14,580 bases of DNA. Origin: Oscillospiraceae bacterium (GTDB lineage: Bacteria > Bacillota_A > Clostridia > Oscillospirales > Oscillospiraceae). The stretch lies in the NCBI GenBank assembly GCA_017936985.1, contig JAGBEM010000222.1, positions 1 through 14,580 on the forward strand, read 5' to 3'. The notes under the pieces are model-generated. The model had not been told where the DNA came from and did no database searches. It was given only the letters and a program-made list of their open reading frames with translations. The position numbers and the translations under genes were made by a program. Each line of letters starts with the position of its first letter. Position 1 is the first letter of the stretch. This document shows, in pieces, positions 1,825 through 14,580 of this stretch.

Positions 1825-2916
1825 TTAACTGCAAAGGTCCCAGCCAGATCCGTTGCCAACATAAGGGGCATACAGATCCCAACTGGAACCATTACCGATA
1901 TAGATTTGATAGGCCTCATTGCCTATATAGACCAATCCCTTCGCACCCCAGATTGCGTACAGAGTCACATTGCCAGATGGTGTATAGCTACCGGTTGTAC
2001 CAGAAGTTGCTGTACTGCTGGTTGCCCAGCCCATGAAGTTATAGCCACTGCGTGTGGGTGTTGGCAGGGTAACTGCCGCAGTTGTGGTGCTGCTGGTATA
2101 AATTGCATACAGTGCCAGCGCGGCATTGGCGGTGTAAGAAGCACCGGATGCGTAGCTGGTACCTGTGCCGCTGGAGTTCGTGTTCCACTTGCTGAAGGTG
2201 TACTTTGTGGTTCGTGCCGCCGACAGCGATGCCGAAGAGCAAGTACCACCATTGGCATTCAGCGTCACGGTGTAACTACCTGCAGAGGTGCTGCTTTTGG
2301 TGGGTTTTGTGGAACTCAATGTAAGTGCTGTGCCATAGGTCTTGTACTGGGTACTGGGCGCGCCACTACCGCCGTTGGCATTGTAGGTGACCGCATAGGT
2401 TTGAACAACATAGGTAATGGATGCGGAACCATTCCAGGAATTGTTCACACCATAAATATATGAGGTGCTTTTCGTATACAAAAACAGATAGTACGATGTG
2501 TTTTTGCTGAATGTTCCCGAAAAGGACATGGTCACAGTCGTAGGCGAAGTTGAACTTGTGGAAATACCAGTTTTGCTTGCTTCGCTGCCAACCGCATTGG
2601 TACGAAATGTGGATTCTGTGTCACTGGAGGTGCTGTCCGTGTAAGTGGTACGAAGACTGCCGTACAAAGTGCCTGTTGTCGTCCCTCTGCTGTATACTTG
2701 AAAAGTAATCGACAGATTGGAGATACTTCCGATTTTTGCGTCGTTTGGCGTTGTGACTTTAATAATGACACCGTACTTGTTGTTACCGCTGGGACTGGAT
2801 ATGGATGCGTTGATACCAGTACTGCTTCCATCTGCTGTCCACGCACCGCTTGTTGGATACCAAACCTTTGAAGCTCTGGCTCTCCATCCGTTTACCGTTG
2901 CGCTCATCGTTGCCAT
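1825..2916 (-). CDS. InlB B-repeat fibre / putative receptor-binding protein
   Basis: This 363-residue protein is rich in Ser, Thr, Gly and Tyr, as phage fibre and adhesin proteins are. Residues 1-170 form a beta-rich domain I do not recognise. Residues 175-323 contain Listeria-Bacteroides (InlB B / Flg_new) repeats: VTYNANGG at 176-183, VTLNANGG at 217-224 with KYTFSKWNTNSSGTG and ALYAIY, and a third unit GYNFMGWATSS ... VTLYAIW at 291-323. The C-terminus (329-361) repeats a short YIGN / YIGNGSSWDLY / YVGNGSGWDL motif. It lies between another fibre gene and the lysis genes, the usual place for host-recognition proteins. The start ATG at 2916 has AAGAAGGTG upstream and follows the previous stop by three bases. 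A receptor-binding role is inferred from position and domains. Which sugar or protein it binds cannot be told. Confidence 0.8.
   Translation of the reverse strand: MATMSATVNGWRARASKVWYPTSGAWTADGSSTGINASISSPSGNNKYGVIIKVTTPNDAKIGSISNLSITFQVYSRGTTTGTLYGSLRTTYTDSTSSDTESTFRTNAVGSEASKTGISTSSTSPTTVTMSFSGTFSKNTSYYLFLYTKSTSYIYGVNNSWNGSASITYVVQTYAVTYNANGGSGAPSTQYKTYGTALTLSSTKPTKSSTSAGSYTVTLNANGGTCSSASLSAARTTKYTFSKWNTNSSGTGTSYASGASYTANAALALYAIYTSSTTTAAVTLPTPTRSGYNFMGWATSSTATSGTTGSYTPSGNVTLYAIWGAKGLVYIGNEAYQIYIGNGSSWDLYAPYVGNGSGWDLCS
1834..1935 (-). repeat. C-terminal YIGN-(x)-SSWDLY repeats of the InlB-type fibre
   Basis: Residues 328-361 of the InlB-type protein contain three related units: YIGNEAYQI, YIGNGSSWDLYAP and YVGNGSGWDLC. 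Short aromatic-glycine repeats at the extreme C-terminus suggest a binding or trimer-tip module. This is read from the protein and no function is proven. Confidence 0.55.
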
Positions 2917-4830: not shown

Positions 4831-5703
4831 TTATACGCTCCTGTAGTAGTAATACACACGGACGGTAGCTTGACCGGTGATCTCACTGTCCGCGGACATG
4901 AGAAGCACACAATCCTCATTAACGGGGATGCGAGGAAAGGGTTCATAGGCCAAATCCACATCGTTCAACGCATCTGCTGCAATGCCGTCTGCCCCGGTGA
5001 TCTCCACTTTGCATCTTCCATAAAAGGAGGAAACCGTGAAGGATTCATTGTCTGCCAGCGTGGCGTTGAGTGCGCAAATGCCGTATGTGATGTTACTGGA
5101 GCTACCTACCAGCTTGATTTGGGGGTTGACGATGGCTCCCTGATAAGTCAGCTCAAAGGCAGCCGGGATATGACCGCCAGCGGGGATGTCTGCGGCCATG
5201 CTTCCTGCACTGGAGGAACTGTAAATCAGATCCCTGGAATAGCTGTAAGGGTACTTCAATACATATCCCGATTCCGTGGACATGGACATACTGGTGGGAG
5301 CCGCCCGGTACCAGGGGGATAGACAAGCCAGGGATGTGGGGACAGTCAGCCACCGGGTATCCGTCAGTTCGGTCTTTGTCAGATAACTGAGGCAGATATC
5401 ACGGTAAAATTTGGTGGAGCCATAGGGCTTGTAGATAAGGCGAAGAGATTCTGAGCCGCTGCACCAGTCAACGAAGGATCTGTAGTCGTCATAGGCGTTA
5501 TCCCCTATGAACACCAAATCTCCGGTGATGGTACTTTGCGGCACGGAATCTTTGGATGTCTCCCGGAAGAAGCCATTATGGATATCTGCAAACTCGGAGG
5601 GCATCGTCAGACCAAGACCTGCGGGATTGGACAGGAAGATGCCCTTTTCACCATTGAGGGGCAATCTGCTGCCAATCTCGTTTTCAATATAGAACTTTCT
5701 CAA
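4831..5703 (-). CDS. Distal tail protein (Dit)
   Basis: This 290-residue protein sits between the tape measure and the hub, the conserved Dit position. Its N-terminus (RKFYIENEIGSRLPLNGEKG) and SRDLIYSS / WYRAAPTSM segments resemble the siphovirus Dit/tail protein family (Sipho_tail). Dit forms the ring that joins the tail tube to the baseplate. The apparent start is TTG (5703-5701), which overlaps the tape-measure stop as TTGA. A GGGGGCGGC stretch just upstream could be the ribosome site. No ATG lies nearby in frame, and the protein would lose its conserved N-terminus if started later. It ends one base before the hub start. Confidence 0.85.
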   Translation of the reverse strand: MRKFYIENEIGSRLPLNGEKGIFLSNPAGLGLTMPSEFADIHNGFFRETSKDSVPQSTITGDLVFIGDNAYDDYRSFVDWCSGSESLRLIYKPYGSTKFYRDICLSYLTKTELTDTRWLTVPTSLACLSPWYRAAPTSMSMSTESGYVLKYPYSYSRDLIYSSSSAGSMAADIPAGGHIPAAFELTYQGAIVNPQIKLVGSSSNITYGICALNATLADNESFTVSSFYGRCKVEITGADGIAADALNDVDLAYEPFPRIPVNEDCVLLMSADSEITGQATVRVYYYYRSV

Positions 5704-8171
5704 ATTGCCGCCCCCAATCGCGCATTGAATTTCAGGAACAGGTAATCAATGGTCGCCTGATCCAAAGTTTGCGGATAGATGTTGATTGTGGTTTGAGCAC
5801 CGTTTTTCATAGAAGTAGCCCCATTGCTTTCCACAACGCCTTTTACCGTGATCCCGGGGGCCAGAGAGGTATTCATATCAGCAGCCAAATCGCTGACTGC
5901 CTCACTGATCCCTTTGCTCATTTCTTCGGTGGCTTTCACAGCCTCTTCACCGTCACGGGAGATTGCTCCAGACAGACCTTTTACCAGCATCTGTCCAGCC
6001 CAGTCCATAAGGTCAGAGGGAGAGTGGATGCCAAAGAAATCACAGATTCCATTCCAGATGGACTGAATCCACGAGGATACCTTCGACCATAACCAGCCGG
6101 CAAGAGACTGGATTCCTTGCCAAAGGCCACGGACGATATTCTCGCCCACACTGACAATTTGCCCCATTGAGGAAGTGAACGCCTGTACAATCCCCGAGAT
6201 GATTTGCGGAATGGCACGGACGATTTCTACAATGATTTTAGGCAGATTCTGAATGAGGGCTACGAAGAGTTGGAAGCCAGTGGTTGCGATTTTATCTGTA
6301 TTGCCTACCAGAGCATTGACCAGATTTCCGATGATTTCCGGGATGGCTGTGAGCAATGTGACAATGATGCTGGGCAAAGCAGAGATGAGCGAGACCAGCA
6401 GATCAAATCCCGCCTGAACCAGCTGCGGAATGGAATCCAAAATGGCAGCTACAAGATTACTGATGATTTCCGGGATTGCGGTCAGAAGGGTGCTGATGAT
6501 TTTGGGCAAGGCGGTGATAAGCGAGGTGAGCAGCCGCACGCCGGTATCAATGATTTTTGGAATGCTGGAGAGGAAGAAACTCACCAGTCCATTGACAATG
6601 GTGGGCAACGCCGCAATGAGAATGGGCAGAGAATTCAGCGCACCGGTGGTCAAGCCCTCAATCAACTGCTGGGCTGCATCCAGAATGAGCGGCATACTGT
6701 CGATCAGGCCGGAAACGATTGTGACCACTGCCTCTACTGCCGTAGGGATCAACTCCGGCAAGGCCGACCCAAGTCCACCGACCAAAGCGGTCACCAGCTG
6801 TACTGCCGCATCGACCAGTAATGGCAGATTCTCTACCAGAGCGGATGCTATTGTCAGCACCGCCTGTACAGCGGCCGGGGTCAGTTCCGGAAGCGAACTC
6901 AGAATCGTAGATAAAACCTGCGTGAACAGGTCTGTCACGGTTTGCAGGAGTATGGGGAGCAGTTCGCCAACCGCATTGATGATCGCGGATACTACCGTAG
7001 GCAGGACAGCAACAATGTTTTCCAAGATGGGCACCACATTGTCTTTCACAGCGGCAAAGGCATCCACCATATTTTGGGTGAGGTTCAGCATATCCGCATC
7101 CGCATTGCCCAGGCCTGCAATGAAGGAATCAATGGACGCCCTCATAAGACCGATGGAACCGGAAATGGTCTCGGTTGCCTCTCGCTCAAAGTTGCCTGCA
7201 TACTGCTGGGTCTGTTCCAGGAAATATGCCATGGATACCTCTGCCTTTTCAGCATTGGACATGGAGGCCCAGGCCTTGTCATAGCCATTTGCCATGGCAT
7301 AGGCTTCCAAGGTGGTATTGTTCATGGCAACACCAAGGTTGTCCATCATGGTGTAGTTGCCCTTTGCCGCACCGGTCACAGCCTCCAAAGCTGCTTCGGT
7401 TTCAATGCCCATGACGGAAGCCATATCGGCGGCTCTCTGCATGGCATCGGTGGTCAATTGCAAAGAACGCTGTTGGGAGACACCACTGCCCTGGAACAGC
7501 GCGCCCATCTTGTTCGCGGTTGCCAGGTATTCACTCTGGGATGTACCCATTGTGCGGTAGGCTTCTTCGGAAATGGCCATCAACTCATTGGCGTAGTCAC
7601 CGTATACGGCAACTGCACCGCCCAGGTTCTGCTCCAGCTCACCAAACTGCTGAACAACAGTACCGGCCAGCTTTACCGTGGCGGCTCCTGCGGCAACTAC
7701 CACAGCACCCATGGCGGCACCGACACTCTTCAGAACGGCGCCCAGACCGCTGAACTTCTTTTCAGATTCTTCGGCGGCATCACCGGCATCTTCCAGTTCC
7801 TCTCCCATGTCATCGGCATCGTCGGAGCATTCCTCCAACTCACGCTCCATGTCATTGAGGGCGGCTTTCGCGTTGTTCAGCTGGATCTGCCAGTTCTGCG
7901 TCCGGCGGTCATTCTCTCCAAAGGATTCCGTGGCATTGTCCAGCGCCTTTGGGAGCATTTCGATTTTCTGCTTCTGGGCATCGATCTGGGAGGTGAGGGT
8001 TTTATGCCGTGCTGCCAGCGCCTCCGCAGAATTATCGTTTTTGCTGAACTGGGATTGCACCAGCTTCATTTCGGAGCCGAGAACCTTGAAGGATTGGTTA
8101 ATTTCATTCAGAGCCTTTTTGAATTCCTTTTCGCCTTCCAGACCAATTTTCAGACCAAAGGTATCAGCCAC
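5700..8171 (-). CDS. Tail tape measure protein
   Basis: This 823-residue protein sets the tail length and is threaded through the tail tube. It has a charged coiled-coil-like N-terminus (about 10-140), a glycine/alanine hydrophobic segment (143-172) and a core domain (about 175-355). A long hydrophobic zone of six 44-residue repeats follows (406-669). After it come a Trp-rich stretch (683-711) and the FFGIHSPSDLMDWAGQMLVKGL motif (712-733), which is typical of siphophage tape measures. The start is GTG (8171-8169) with AAGGAGGTGA at 8187-8178, a perfect match to the 16S anti-Shine-Dalgarno. At roughly 0.15 nm per residue a fully helical protein would span about 120 nm, a rough guide to tail length. 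It follows the chaperone frameshift cassette, the standard order. Confidence 0.95.
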   Translation of the reverse strand: MADTFGLKIGLEGEKEFKKALNEINQSFKVLGSEMKLVQSQFSKNDNSAEALAARHKTLTSQIDAQKQKIEMLPKALDNATESFGENDRRTQNWQIQLNNAKAALNDMERELEECSDDADDMGEELEDAGDAAEESEKKFSGLGAVLKSVGAAMGAVVVAAGAATVKLAGTVVQQFGELEQNLGGAVAVYGDYANELMAISEEAYRTMGTSQSEYLATANKMGALFQGSGVSQQRSLQLTTDAMQRAADMASVMGIETEAALEAVTGAAKGNYTMMDNLGVAMNNTTLEAYAMANGYDKAWASMSNAEKAEVSMAYFLEQTQQYAGNFEREATETISGSIGLMRASIDSFIAGLGNADADMLNLTQNMVDAFAAVKDNVVPILENIVAVLPTVVSAIINAVGELLPILLQTVTDLFTQVLSTILSSLPELTPAAVQAVLTIASALVENLPLLVDAAVQLVTALVGGLGSALPELIPTAVEAVVTIVSGLIDSMPLILDAAQQLIEGLTTGALNSLPILIAALPTIVNGLVSFFLSSIPKIIDTGVRLLTSLITALPKIISTLLTAIPEIISNLVAAILDSIPQLVQAGFDLLVSLISALPSIIVTLLTAIPEIIGNLVNALVGNTDKIATTGFQLFVALIQNLPKIIVEIVRAIPQIISGIVQAFTSSMGQIVSVGENIVRGLWQGIQSLAGWLWSKVSSWIQSIWNGICDFFGIHSPSDLMDWAGQMLVKGLSGAISRDGEEAVKATEEMSKGISEAVSDLAADMNTSLAPGITVKGVVESNGATSMKNGAQTTINIYPQTLDQATIDYLFLKFNARLGAAI
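6165..6956 (-). repeat. Six 44-residue (132-bp) repeats within the tape measure
   Basis: Proline columns recur at residues 406, 450, 494, 538 and 582, with the sixth unit carrying D at 626. A second set falls at 556, 600 and 644 and a third at 523, 567, 611 and 655. All are spaced by exactly 44 residues. The units share a hydrophobic xLPxIIxTLLTAIPEII-like pattern. Forty-four is four times eleven, the repeat length described in other tape measures. Confidence 0.85.
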
Positions 8172-8177
8172 GGTGAA

Positions 8178-8187
8178 TCACCTCCTT
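8178..8187 (-). promoter_or_regulatory. Ribosome site deciding the GTG start of the tape measure
   Basis: AAGGAGGTGA is fully complementary to the 3' end of 16S rRNA and lies six bases before GTG 8171. It sits in the gap after the frameshifted chaperone stop (TGA 8192-8190). Confidence 0.85.
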
Positions 8188-8189
8188 CC

Positions 8190-8761
8190 TCAGATTCCAT
8201 CCGGGATGATCTCGTCGATGAAAACCTCCCGTTTGGGTCTGGAAATGCCGTTGTACTGCTTGTGACACTCCCAGAGATCCAGGAGTAAGCCAAACGGCAT
8301 CAGCCAGGTTTCGTCCCAGGAAAGACGAAGCTGGCTGATGCCGTAATAAAGCAGTCGGGTAAATAACTCCTCGTCACTTACCCGACTGCCGCGTTTTTTG
8401 GGTCATCCTCGCTGACGATGTTGCGCTTGGTGCCCTTATACAGCGCCTCCGTGATGGCCTCCTTGTAGGATGCCAAATCCGCAGGTGTGGTCAGGAGTTC
8501 CACATTTTCCTCGGTAAGCAGATCCAGCTTGCTGTCCGCATGGCGGAGATTGTGGATGAGAATGGACTGGTTTGCCAGAAGGGTGATAAGCCAGACGATT
8601 TCGCCGATGGCCAGTTCGAAATTCTCGGACTTCATTAGCTTGTCGCCCAGGTTTTCCAGACCGCCATAGCGACCGGCGATTTGTTTCGTTGCTCTTGTGG
8701 TCAGGACCAGACTGTATTCCTCACCACCAATCGTGATGGTAGCAGTGCGTTCATTATCCAT
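8190..8761 (-). CDS. Tail assembly chaperone GT fusion made by -1 frameshift
   Basis: Reading starts at ATG 8761 and runs through 123 zero-frame codons to the slippery AAA-AAC. It then shifts back one base at 8393, reads 67 more codons and ends at TGA 8192-8190, giving 190 residues. The added part includes DEELFTRLLYYGISQLRLSW and LLDLWECHKQYNG, resembling the T domain of siphophage tail chaperones just ahead of the tape measure. In lambda, gpGT binds the tape measure and recruits tail-tube subunits. The T part has no start of its own near its beginning: the first in-frame ATG (8300) is already 31 codons in. Support is the slippery heptamer, the downstream stem-loop and the correct position. 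The frameshift itself is not measured. Confidence 0.88.
8351..8389 (-). other. Frameshift-stimulating stem-loop (perfect 12-bp stem)
   Basis: GCAGTCGGGTAA (8389-8378) is the exact reverse complement of TTACCCGACTGC (8362-8351), with a 15-base loop. The stem starts three bases after the slippery heptamer and contains the zero-frame TAA stop. This fits a -1 frameshift stimulator. Bacterial examples usually have a slightly longer spacer. Confidence 0.85.
8378..8761 (-). CDS. Tail assembly chaperone G (zero-frame product)
   Basis: This 127-residue product lies between the major tail protein and the tape measure, the place of lambda gpG-like chaperones. It begins MDNERTATITIGGEEYSLVL and has helical segments such as LAIGEIVWLITLLANQSILI. 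It resembles small Firmicutes phage chaperones; DUF6096 comes to mind, but I could not verify this. The zero frame ends only four codons after the slippery site (GCG GCA GTC GGG TAA), so G and GT share residues 1-123. The start ATG has AAGGAGG seven bases upstream and follows the tail-protein stop by 14 bases. It should coat the hydrophobic tape measure during tail assembly. Confidence 0.88.
   Translation of the reverse strand: MDNERTATITIGGEEYSLVLTTRATKQIAGRYGGLENLGDKLMKSENFELAIGEIVWLITLLANQSILIHNLRHADSKLDLLTEENVELLTTPADLASYKEAITEALYKGTKRNIVSEDDPKNAAVG
8393..8399 (-). promoter_or_regulatory. -1 ribosomal frameshift slippery heptamer A-AAA-AAC
   Basis: The minus strand reads CCA AAA AAC in the zero frame of the chaperone gene, placing A-AAA-AAC in the right phase for a tandem -1 slip. 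A GAGG lies seven bases upstream and might act as a stimulating Shine-Dalgarno-like element, as in dnaX. The -1 frame is open from here to 8190. Confidence 0.9.
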
Positions 8762-8775
8762 AAAGTGCCTCCTTA

Positions 8776-9360
8776 TCAGGCGGTATAGGCAGGCTCATAG
8801 ACCTCGTTATACCAATTGACGATGGTTTCTTCCGCAACGGTGGTATCGCCCTCGGTCACTTCTGCCTTCCAGGGGTGCTTTCCTCTGGAATCGGCCTTGT
8901 TCCGGCGAAGAATCGTACCTTCAATGGTGGGGGTGGAGAAGGTGATGCTGTCGCCCTTGGTGGCGAGGTTGGCGGCAGGAATGCCGAACTTCACACGGTA
9001 CAGCCAGAAATACTTGTATTTCCCATTCGCCTTTTTGGCCCGGAAGCCGATGGCGACAGGAGAACCGCCGTCTTCGCTGGCAGACACGATAACACCATTG
9101 GCATCAATGGTGGCGCCGGTCAGATCGGATGCAACGGCCGCACCGATATCATCCACGCCAAGGGTCAGTTTACCGCTCTTGAATTCCTTGACGACTTCTG
9201 CCGCACCATCATCTGCGTAGAGCGTGGCCTCTGCCAGTTCCACAGACAAATCGGCGGTCATGGCTTTTGCAAGCTGGGTAGGTTTTCCATAGCTTTCCTC
9301 GCCATTTTCCGAATCCGTAATCTTGGCGTAGTACAGCTTATCAAGGCCAATTGTAGCCAT
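8776..9360 (-). CDS. Major tail protein, phi13 family
   Basis: This 194-residue protein forms the tail tube. Its N-terminus (MATIGLDKLYYAKITDSENG ... ESYGKPTQLAKAMTADLSVE) and the later FRAKKANGKYKYFWLYRVKFG and FSTPTIEGTILRR segments match the phi13-type major tail protein family as I know it. The length is typical and there is no extra C-terminal Ig-like domain. The start ATG has GGAGG nine bases upstream, which lies inside the last codons of the previous gene. The gap to that gene is three bases. The downstream chaperone genes and tape measure complete the tail-tube assembly set. Confidence 0.93.
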   Translation of the reverse strand: MATIGLDKLYYAKITDSENGEESYGKPTQLAKAMTADLSVELAEATLYADDGAAEVVKEFKSGKLTLGVDDIGAAVASDLTGATIDANGVIVSASEDGGSPVAIGFRAKKANGKYKYFWLYRVKFGIPAANLATKGDSITFSTPTIEGTILRRNKADSRGKHPWKAEVTEGDTTVAEETIVNWYNEVYEPAYTA

Positions 9361-14080: not shown

Positions 14081-14404
14081 TTACAGAAATTTCTTCATGA
14101 CACGCATATAATCGCGCTTCCCATTAAAAATCGCCATGACATAGGCTGTGTTCGCTTCTTTTTCATACAGATAGAAAAGAAGGTAATCCTTGTAGACAAG
14201 GAAACGATAACCGCTGCTTTTCAGAACTCGATCTCTGGGGATTGCACCAGACTCCGGGAACTGCTCCAGAATCCTGGCCTTTTCCTGAAGCTCTCTGACA
14301 AATCGAATGGCCAGATTCTTATCCTTTGACAGATCCGCAAGATAGACAGCGATGTCCCGGAGATCCGATTTGGCCGTATCCGTAAATACAACTTTACAAT
14401 TCAT
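14081..14404 (-). CDS. Type II toxin, RelE/ParE superfamily
   Basis: This 107-residue protein matches the RelE/ParE superfamily: MNCKVVFTDTAKSDLRDIAV at the start, a helix pair (KNLAIRFVRELQEKARILEQFP), then GYRFLVYKDYLLFYLYE and AYVMAIFNGKRDYMRVM strands. Members are ribosome-dependent mRNA nucleases or gyrase inhibitors. Which applies here cannot be told from the sequence. The ATG overlaps the antitoxin stop as ATGA, so the pair is translationally coupled, antitoxin first. A terminator follows 18 bases after the stop. Its place just ahead of the portal suggests a cargo (moron) cassette in the late region. Confidence 0.9.
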   Translation of the reverse strand: MNCKVVFTDTAKSDLRDIAVYLADLSKDKNLAIRFVRELQEKARILEQFPESGAIPRDRVLKSSGYRFLVYKDYLLFYLYEKEANTAYVMAIFNGKRDYMRVMKKFL

Positions 14405-14580
14405 ACATCCAGACTCTCCAATTCACCGAGGATGTCGGCGAAAGCATCATCCGCAGACTGCACTCTGCCAAGTTTGATGTCATCCATCGCCTGTGCCAGA
14501 TGGGAATACACACTCAGCTTTGCTTCCAGTTCGCTGATATAGTGAAGCTGATCCTGGAAATCCTCATGGCTAAGAAGAAC
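14401..14580 (-). CDS. Type II antitoxin, Phd/YefM family (N-terminus off the right edge)
   Basis: The frame is open from the right edge to TGA 14403-14401 and gives the last 59 residues, including VLLSHEDFQDQLHYISELEA, HLAQAMDDIKLGRVQSADDA and FADILGELESLDV. This fits the C-terminal half of Phd/YefM antitoxins: the VLLS-EDF strand-helix junction, then the toxin-binding helices. The DNA-binding N-terminus lies outside the window. It overlaps the toxin start by four bases. The full protein should neutralise the toxin and repress the pair's promoter, by analogy with the family. Confidence 0.85.
   Translation of the reverse strand, partial: VLLSHEDFQDQLHYISELEAKLSVYSHLAQAMDDIKLGRVQSADDAFADILGELESLDV

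Follow-up and report, generated by a model that had tools for sequence, protein, structure and literature searches.

Does the short gene that lies between the major tail protein and tape-measure genes of this siphophage tail cluster encode one protein or two? The window, by which we mean the whole stretch of 14,580 nt analyzed here (contig JAGBEM010000222.1, from an Oscillospiraceae bacterium), carries siphophage genes for portal, Clp-like protease, capsid, head-tail adaptor, head closure, neck, tail terminator and major tail protein ahead of this gene, and the tape measure, then Dit, after it. Frameshifting in tail-chaperone genes has long been known, and the G/GT pair of lambda is located between the major tail protein and the tape measure; G of the window, with the major tail protein upstream and the tape measure downstream, has the lambda-type placement. 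A sequence-only reading had proposed that a programmed -1 frameshift at the end of G yields two tail assembly chaperones, G and a G-T fusion. That proposal is strongly supported by the arrangement of the frames, the slippery heptamer, the lack of a start for T and a covarying hairpin, all predicted or read from the DNA as described below.

The 3' end of G reads CCA AAA AAC GCG GCA GTC GGG TAA. The codons AAA (8398-8396) and AAC (8395-8393) place an in-phase XXXYYYZ heptamer near the 3' end of the gene, as in lambda-type systems, with four sense codons (GCG GCA GTC GGG) between it and the stop (Table 1). Beyond the heptamer the -1 frame is open for 67 sense codons (8393-8193) and closes at a TGA (8192-8190), ahead of the tape-measure GTG start at 8171, which is preceded by AAGGAGGTG. 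On re-reading, the coordinates and codon counts given earlier for the heptamer and the -1 frame proved correct. Another TGA (8405-8403), immediately 5' of the heptamer, leaves T without a reading frame upstream. G matched phrog_2115 ('tail protein', E 4.9e-27), and its AlphaFold2 model (mean pLDDT 84.5) shows two strands with helices after them; no Pfam family and no PDB sequence was matched by G.

Table 1. Features of the G/T junction and of the flanking tail genes (window coordinates)
Feature	Coordinates	Strand	Details
Major tail protein	8776..9360	-	phrog_88, E 4.2e-52
Gene G, zero-frame tail assembly chaperone (predicted)	8378..8761	-	127 codons + TAA; phrog_2115, AlphaFold2 model
-1 frame stop TGA, directly 5' of heptamer	8403..8405	-	closes T frame upstream
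Slippery heptamer A_AAA_AAC	8393..8399	-	in phase; kept in homologous junctions
T domain, -1 frame	8190..8393	-	phrog_10988; helical model
Hairpin 1, probable frameshift stimulator	8350..8390	-	18-bp stem, 5-nt loop 8372-8368
Zero-frame stop TAA of G	8378..8380	-	within 5' arm of hairpin 1
Hairpin 2	8294..8344	-	14 + 8 bp; 5-nt linker after hairpin 1; partly conserved
Tail tape-measure protein	5700..8171	-	GTG start; phrog_58, E 7.2e-83

To compare this arrangement across relatives, we drew homologous loci from three sources: the 80 best of 372 in viral contigs, the 80 best of 311 in GTDB genomes, and named phages (19 fetched of the 20 records with a G match, the partial record H20 being left out). 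These provided 179 readable junctions (79 + 19 + 80 + 1, the last being the window), excluding a locus in which G runs off its contig (L006) and one in which tblastn missed G at the set limit (L100). T lies in the -1 frame relative to G in all 179 (178 by script, L099 from its coordinates). The phase of the heptamer is likewise constant in 179 of 179; 177 junctions read AAAAAAC and two (L086 and L131) AAAAAAT. Simulated 9-codon overlaps, built with the G codon usage of the homologous family, contained an in-phase XXXYYYZ by chance in 2.2% of cases (1.3% if Y was restricted to A or T); judged from these sequences, conservation of the heptamer in homologues far exceeds the chance expectation. 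Many loci are near-identical: 176 junctions had 70 nt available, of which 107 were unique. A nonredundant set of 84 remained once sequences of over 90% likeness, and those with under 560 nt surrounding the junction, were removed.

A second scan, anchored on T and independent of G, covered the best 80 of 583 loci, three of which were already in the set. The DNA of 15 of the 77 new loci repeats known junctions, and the other 62 comprise 46 distinct junction sequences. Sixty of these 62 have an upstream G in the -1 relation (59 with AAAAAAC, one with AAAAAAA); the remaining two are contigs cut near the junction. Since the locus lists hold the best 80 of 372, of 311 and of 583, closer relatives are over-represented in all of these counts.

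How, then, is T started? The sole ATG, GTG or TTG codon of the window's -1 frame is an ATG at 8300, which corresponds to T residue 32 and falls inside the conserved domain, and conservation of the T protein starts at residues 4-5, well ahead of it. The T frame has no ATG, GTG or TTG before residue 10 in 169 of the 179 junctions, and no SD-like string precedes an early T-frame codon of these three kinds in any of the 179, including the 10 junctions that have such a codon. The earlier claim that T lacks a start of its own extends, for ATG, GTG and TTG, to the whole family sampled, and a search among these homologues for a separately started T gene found none. The accompanying claim, that gene callers miss T, stood in part: of the 18 annotated close relatives fetched, not one has an annotated G-T fusion, but all 18 have a truncated ORF called within T, as a 'hypothetical protein' of 30-61 aa whose start lies in T (for L081, within an intron). 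Phages Arawn and Ld17 have no annotated CDS where T lies.

T combines three features of lambda-type T domains, being a -1 ORF that lacks its own start and is conserved as a protein. It matched phrog_10988, a family of 'unknown function' (E 6.7e-27), as did 83 of 83 aligned T sequences, and its predicted structure is helical (mean pLDDT 88.0). Four of the 83 also matched phrog_31021, 'tail assembly chaperone', weakly (best E 0.031), and 24 of the 83 weakly matched a PHROG termed 'membrane protein' (best E 0.0013). Searches with T gave one sub-threshold match in Pfam (DUF6227, E 0.081) and no match in NCBIfam. Its single match to a PDB sequence, a kinase, was dismissed as a chance alignment. Neither sequence nor fold links T convincingly to a characterized T domain.

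The sequence-only reading overlooked a structure downstream of the heptamer, hairpin 1, and because this hairpin covaries, the case for frameshifting is now stronger than when it was first made. Its outermost pair is G-U, its loop is GAGGA and its 5' arm pairs the TAA of G. Folding of 8389-8341 gave -29.9 kcal/mol (z -8.96). Between the heptamer and the window's full stem lie 2 nt, and between the heptamer and the core common to homologues 5 nt; known stimulators are placed 5-9 nt from the heptamer in one source (PMC5009743) and 5-8 nt past it in another (PMC4066793). The locus thus has what characterizes hairpin-stimulated signals, a stable and compensated structure a few nucleotides 3' of the heptamer.

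Pair counts were made on 84 aligned sequences, 81 of them distinct. In the stem of hairpin 1, 86.0% of cells were paired, compared with 31.2-46.0% when partners were slid by 1-3 columns; pairing reached 90.7% in the outer helix and 74.6% in the inner. Three of five measures lay above all 500 shuffles in a shuffle control, and two were unexceptional, namely pairs changed on both sides (6 vs 5.5, a value reached in 272 of 500 shuffles) and further pair types (23 vs 20.8, reached in 29 of 500). Kinship was handled by parsimony mapping of changes onto a tree of G DNA. On this tree, 42 branches carry double changes in hairpin 1, compared with 17.1 expected if the two sides changed independently, and 26 of the 42 switch one standard pair to another. 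The switches fall mainly at columns 33-69 (10), 36-66 (6) and 51-57 (5), and at least five occurred at 3 of the 17 stem pairs vs 1 of 619 column pairs off the stem. In the two strongest pairs, both partners are third codon positions in the T frame (CGG/CGA pairing with ACC/ACT, and AGT/AGC with CGA/CGG); in L171, both encoded residues are altered and the base pair is retained. Conservation of hairpin 1 by compensatory change across homologues is supported by these alignments.

Synonymous resampling, in which T codons 1-18 were swapped at family codon usage, asked the same of each sequence separately (n = 83, with L081 omitted for its intron). Natural sequences were more than 2 s.d. stabler than their own resamples in 69 of 83 cases, and the window beat 300 of 300; the other 14 missed z -2, and two of them (L046 and L102) were without any excess stability. 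When 18-codon windows after T codons 30 and 45 were resampled instead, 9 and 5 of the 83 passed. RNAalifold, run on the 84-row gapped alignment, returned a weak consensus (-0.57 kcal/mol) of five pairs, all in the register of hairpin 1. Its weakness perhaps stems from inserted columns in 10 rows (L033, L037, L058, L099, L116, L144, L153, L171, L177 and L178); these rows were kept in the pair and tree counts. A few relatives differ in where the zero-frame stop falls and in how long the hairpin loop or arm is, while keeping a stem (L033 5363-5375, L153 3869-3938, L177 3857-3926); in L033 the stop comes one codon past the heptamer. An Rfam search of 8100-8800 gave one match, mir-1791 (E 0.18), which lies far under the gathering score and was rejected.

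A second hairpin follows the first. Among 83 sequences (L081 again omitted), 72.5% of its cells were paired vs 34.4-44.2% on sliding, and at least 12 of the 14 outer pairs were retained in 35. Double changes numbered 56 vs 26.9 expected, with switches at single pairs mostly near expectation. T codons 19-36, resampled as an intended control, gave 45 of 83 sequences below -2, and this stretch holds hairpin 2. Hairpin 2 is strong in the window and not universal; being less conserved, it has weaker evidence in these alignments than hairpin 1.

The same plan extends to more distant phages. In phage nd12 (L100), whose G and T are 32% and 35% identical to those of the window, and in viral contigs L181-L201, the plan is kept with a different stem, for example GCGGGCAAGG/CCTTGCCCGC. 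L203 and Butyrivibrio phage Arawn have GGGAAAC as heptamer and retain both the -1 relation and a hairpin. We folded 18 distinct distant junctions against mononucleotide shuffles, omitting L202, which is cut short and has no junction. Seventeen reached z <= -2.3, with predicted structure starting 0-6 nt past the heptamer; in Ld17 the hairpin is weak (z -1.3) and begins at 10 nt. Paenibacillus phages Wanderer and LincolnB carry an annotated joined tail assembly CDS, and in Wanderer the end of this CDS coincides exactly with that of the -1 extension which starts at AAAAAAC. According to part of PMC6070908, synteny guided the assignment of the tail assembly genes in these two phages, with a translational frameshift identified between the genes. 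Wanderer (L285) was reached only via nd12, a sister of the window's family (29.8% identity over 69% of G, E 6e-3). Its profile similarity is weak, at 7.1 bits for G and 14.8 bits for T, with the T match in place and E-values that refer to a handful of ORFs.

Three other explanations were weighed against hairpin-stimulated -1 slippage of the ribosome. The first two join or express T without it. Transcriptional slippage at the A run would alter the length of the mRNA and so bring G and T into one frame. There are six consecutive A at the site, and seven in some homologues (for example L026), but six A is short for slippage by bacterial transcription. L203 and Arawn, with GGGAAAC, have no such run and yet keep the -1 relation and the hairpin; the phase of the heptamer never varies among the 179 junctions, and a hairpin immediately 3' suits a ribosomal signal. 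Alternatively, T could stand alone as a small gene whose translation relies on coupling or on an unusual start inside the frame. The truncated ORF that all 18 fetched close relatives have annotated within T would fit this, as would the presence of ATG 8300. The protein, however, is conserved from residues 4-5, before that codon, and the scan for ATG, GTG and TTG left 169 of 179 junctions without a start before residue 10 and none of the 179 with an SD-like string. Given the heptamer phase, the GGGAAAC relatives and the absence of SD-preceded starts, we rejected both ideas and regard each as very improbable.

The third accepts frameshifting and assigns the hairpin another role, in translational control of G or in mRNA stability. 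The stop codon of G does lie within the stem, and the neighboring hairpin 2 is likewise somewhat constrained. Against this, structure begins 0-6 nt past the heptamer in 17 of 18 distant junctions despite their differing stems, and the stem lacks a following U run and hence is no ordinary terminator. We consider such a role unlikely, though less so than the two preceding explanations. The best explanation, and in our judgment very probably the correct one, is -1 slippage at A_AAA_AAC with hairpin 1 as stimulator, giving G and a G-T fusion of ~190 aa.

The anatomy of the junction, its conservation and the compensatory evolution of the hairpin are what the sequences show. From them we infer the slippage itself, its efficiency, its stimulation by the hairpin and the chaperone role of the products. 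A ribosome on A_AAA_AAC would hold tRNA-Lys in the P site and tRNA-Asn in the A site, with hairpin 1 at the mRNA entry channel. The majority of ribosomes would melt the hairpin and terminate at the TAA in its 5' arm, releasing G of 127 aa. In a minority, both tRNAs would re-pair one base back, and translation would proceed in the -1 frame across the two arms of the hairpin until the TGA at 8192-8190, yielding the fusion. Part of PMC4066793 describes A_AAA_AAC as a low-efficiency heptamer in E. coli that is nevertheless very likely used by IS elements; its use here would therefore depend on host tRNAs and on the stimulator. A weak heptamer combined with a strong stimulator would, we infer, suit the low ratio that tails need. 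In lambda, G binds the tape measure and T the major tail protein, at a ratio of 30:1 (PMC5009743, in part). By analogy, G of the window may coat the tape-measure protein, its T part may recruit the major tail protein, and the frameshift signal may set the G:GT ratio. We also entertain, with considerable doubt, a ratio that adjusts itself through ribosome spacing, termination and the speed of hairpin refolding, with hairpin 2 retarding shifted ribosomes. Because the stop of G lies in the 5' arm, terminating ribosomes might keep the hairpin open, so that close followers would meet less structure and slip less.

How does this signal compare with known systems? The parts of PMC5009743 and PMC7618472 that treat lambda G/GT describe the same plan, with a -1 slippery heptamer near the end of G and T in the -1 frame. 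The lambda heptamer is G_GGA_AAG, whereas here A_AAA_AAC is joined to a strong covarying hairpin; the likeness described is one of plan. TP901-1, like the window's phage a siphophage of Firmicutes, joins its G and T frames by -1 slippage according to part of PMC4493119, which also reports that major tail protein was not detected in gpG or gpT mutants. Its heptamer is GGGAAAG and its gpT has 130 residues, compared with 67 codons for T of the window (PMC4493119). Wanderer shares A_AAA_AAC, a 3' hairpin and a -1 extension given as a joined CDS (PMC6070908, in part); the sequence of its stem is unlike that of the window. Signals of the dnaX/IS911 type, as described in parts of PMC5009743, PMC4066793 and PMC3711429, also pair an A-rich heptamer with a downstream stem-loop, but they have an SD-like upstream stimulator, and the window's family shows no enrichment of such strings (39 of 84 near the heptamer vs 39 of 84 in a control stretch).

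One relative carries a mobile element within T. In L081 (PV036457.1), an insert of 2471 bases (6417-8887) interrupts T immediately 3' of hairpin 1, with TAT before it and TAC after it. It encodes a reverse transcriptase with RVT_1, maturase and HNH domains, scores 299.1 bits against the group II maturase model TIGR04416 (slightly below the cut-off of 300), matches the group II intron family RF00029 at its 3' end (54.6 bits, 8791-8887) and has the ends GTGCG...CAC. Without the insert, the conserved LLYYG of the -1 frame is intact. The position of this intron fits a T that is read in the -1 frame, and production of G-T in L081 would need splicing, as predicted from these features, in addition to frameshifting.

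Other observations concern the surroundings of the junction. In L090 (2150-2983), L091 (2147-3070), L095 (2155-3096, including one annotated antitoxin), L097 (2147-3070) and L084 (2353-3060), extra genes separate T from the tape measure or the next long gene, as if this gap were a place of insertion. Upstream of the portal gene, the minus strand of the window (14081-14404) encodes a ParE-type toxin (PF05016, E 4e-15), which together with a possible small partner gene, the open frame 14401-14580 upstream of it, likely forms a toxin-antitoxin pair in the head gene region. A Listeria-Bacteroides repeat protein (1825-2916, minus strand; PF09479, E 2.2e-18) is encoded between the tail and lysis genes and is perhaps host-binding. 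Erysipelothrix phage phi1605 (L082) and Streptococcus phage Javan630 (L083) have matching annotated tail gene coordinates, which, in phages of two distant hosts, suggests recent exchange.

The mechanism itself is known; what is new here is the description of a probable RNA stimulator together with a well-documented G/T family. We found no description of hairpin 1, or of phrog_10988 as a T domain, in the open-licence papers searched. Phrog_10988, listed as unknown, gains a probable function, and annotation can be corrected in phages and prophages of Firmicutes, gut phages labeled Ca. Heliusvirales among them. The family also offers an RNA stimulator that is visible in alignments across differing stems, so that the strength of the signal can be compared between relatives.
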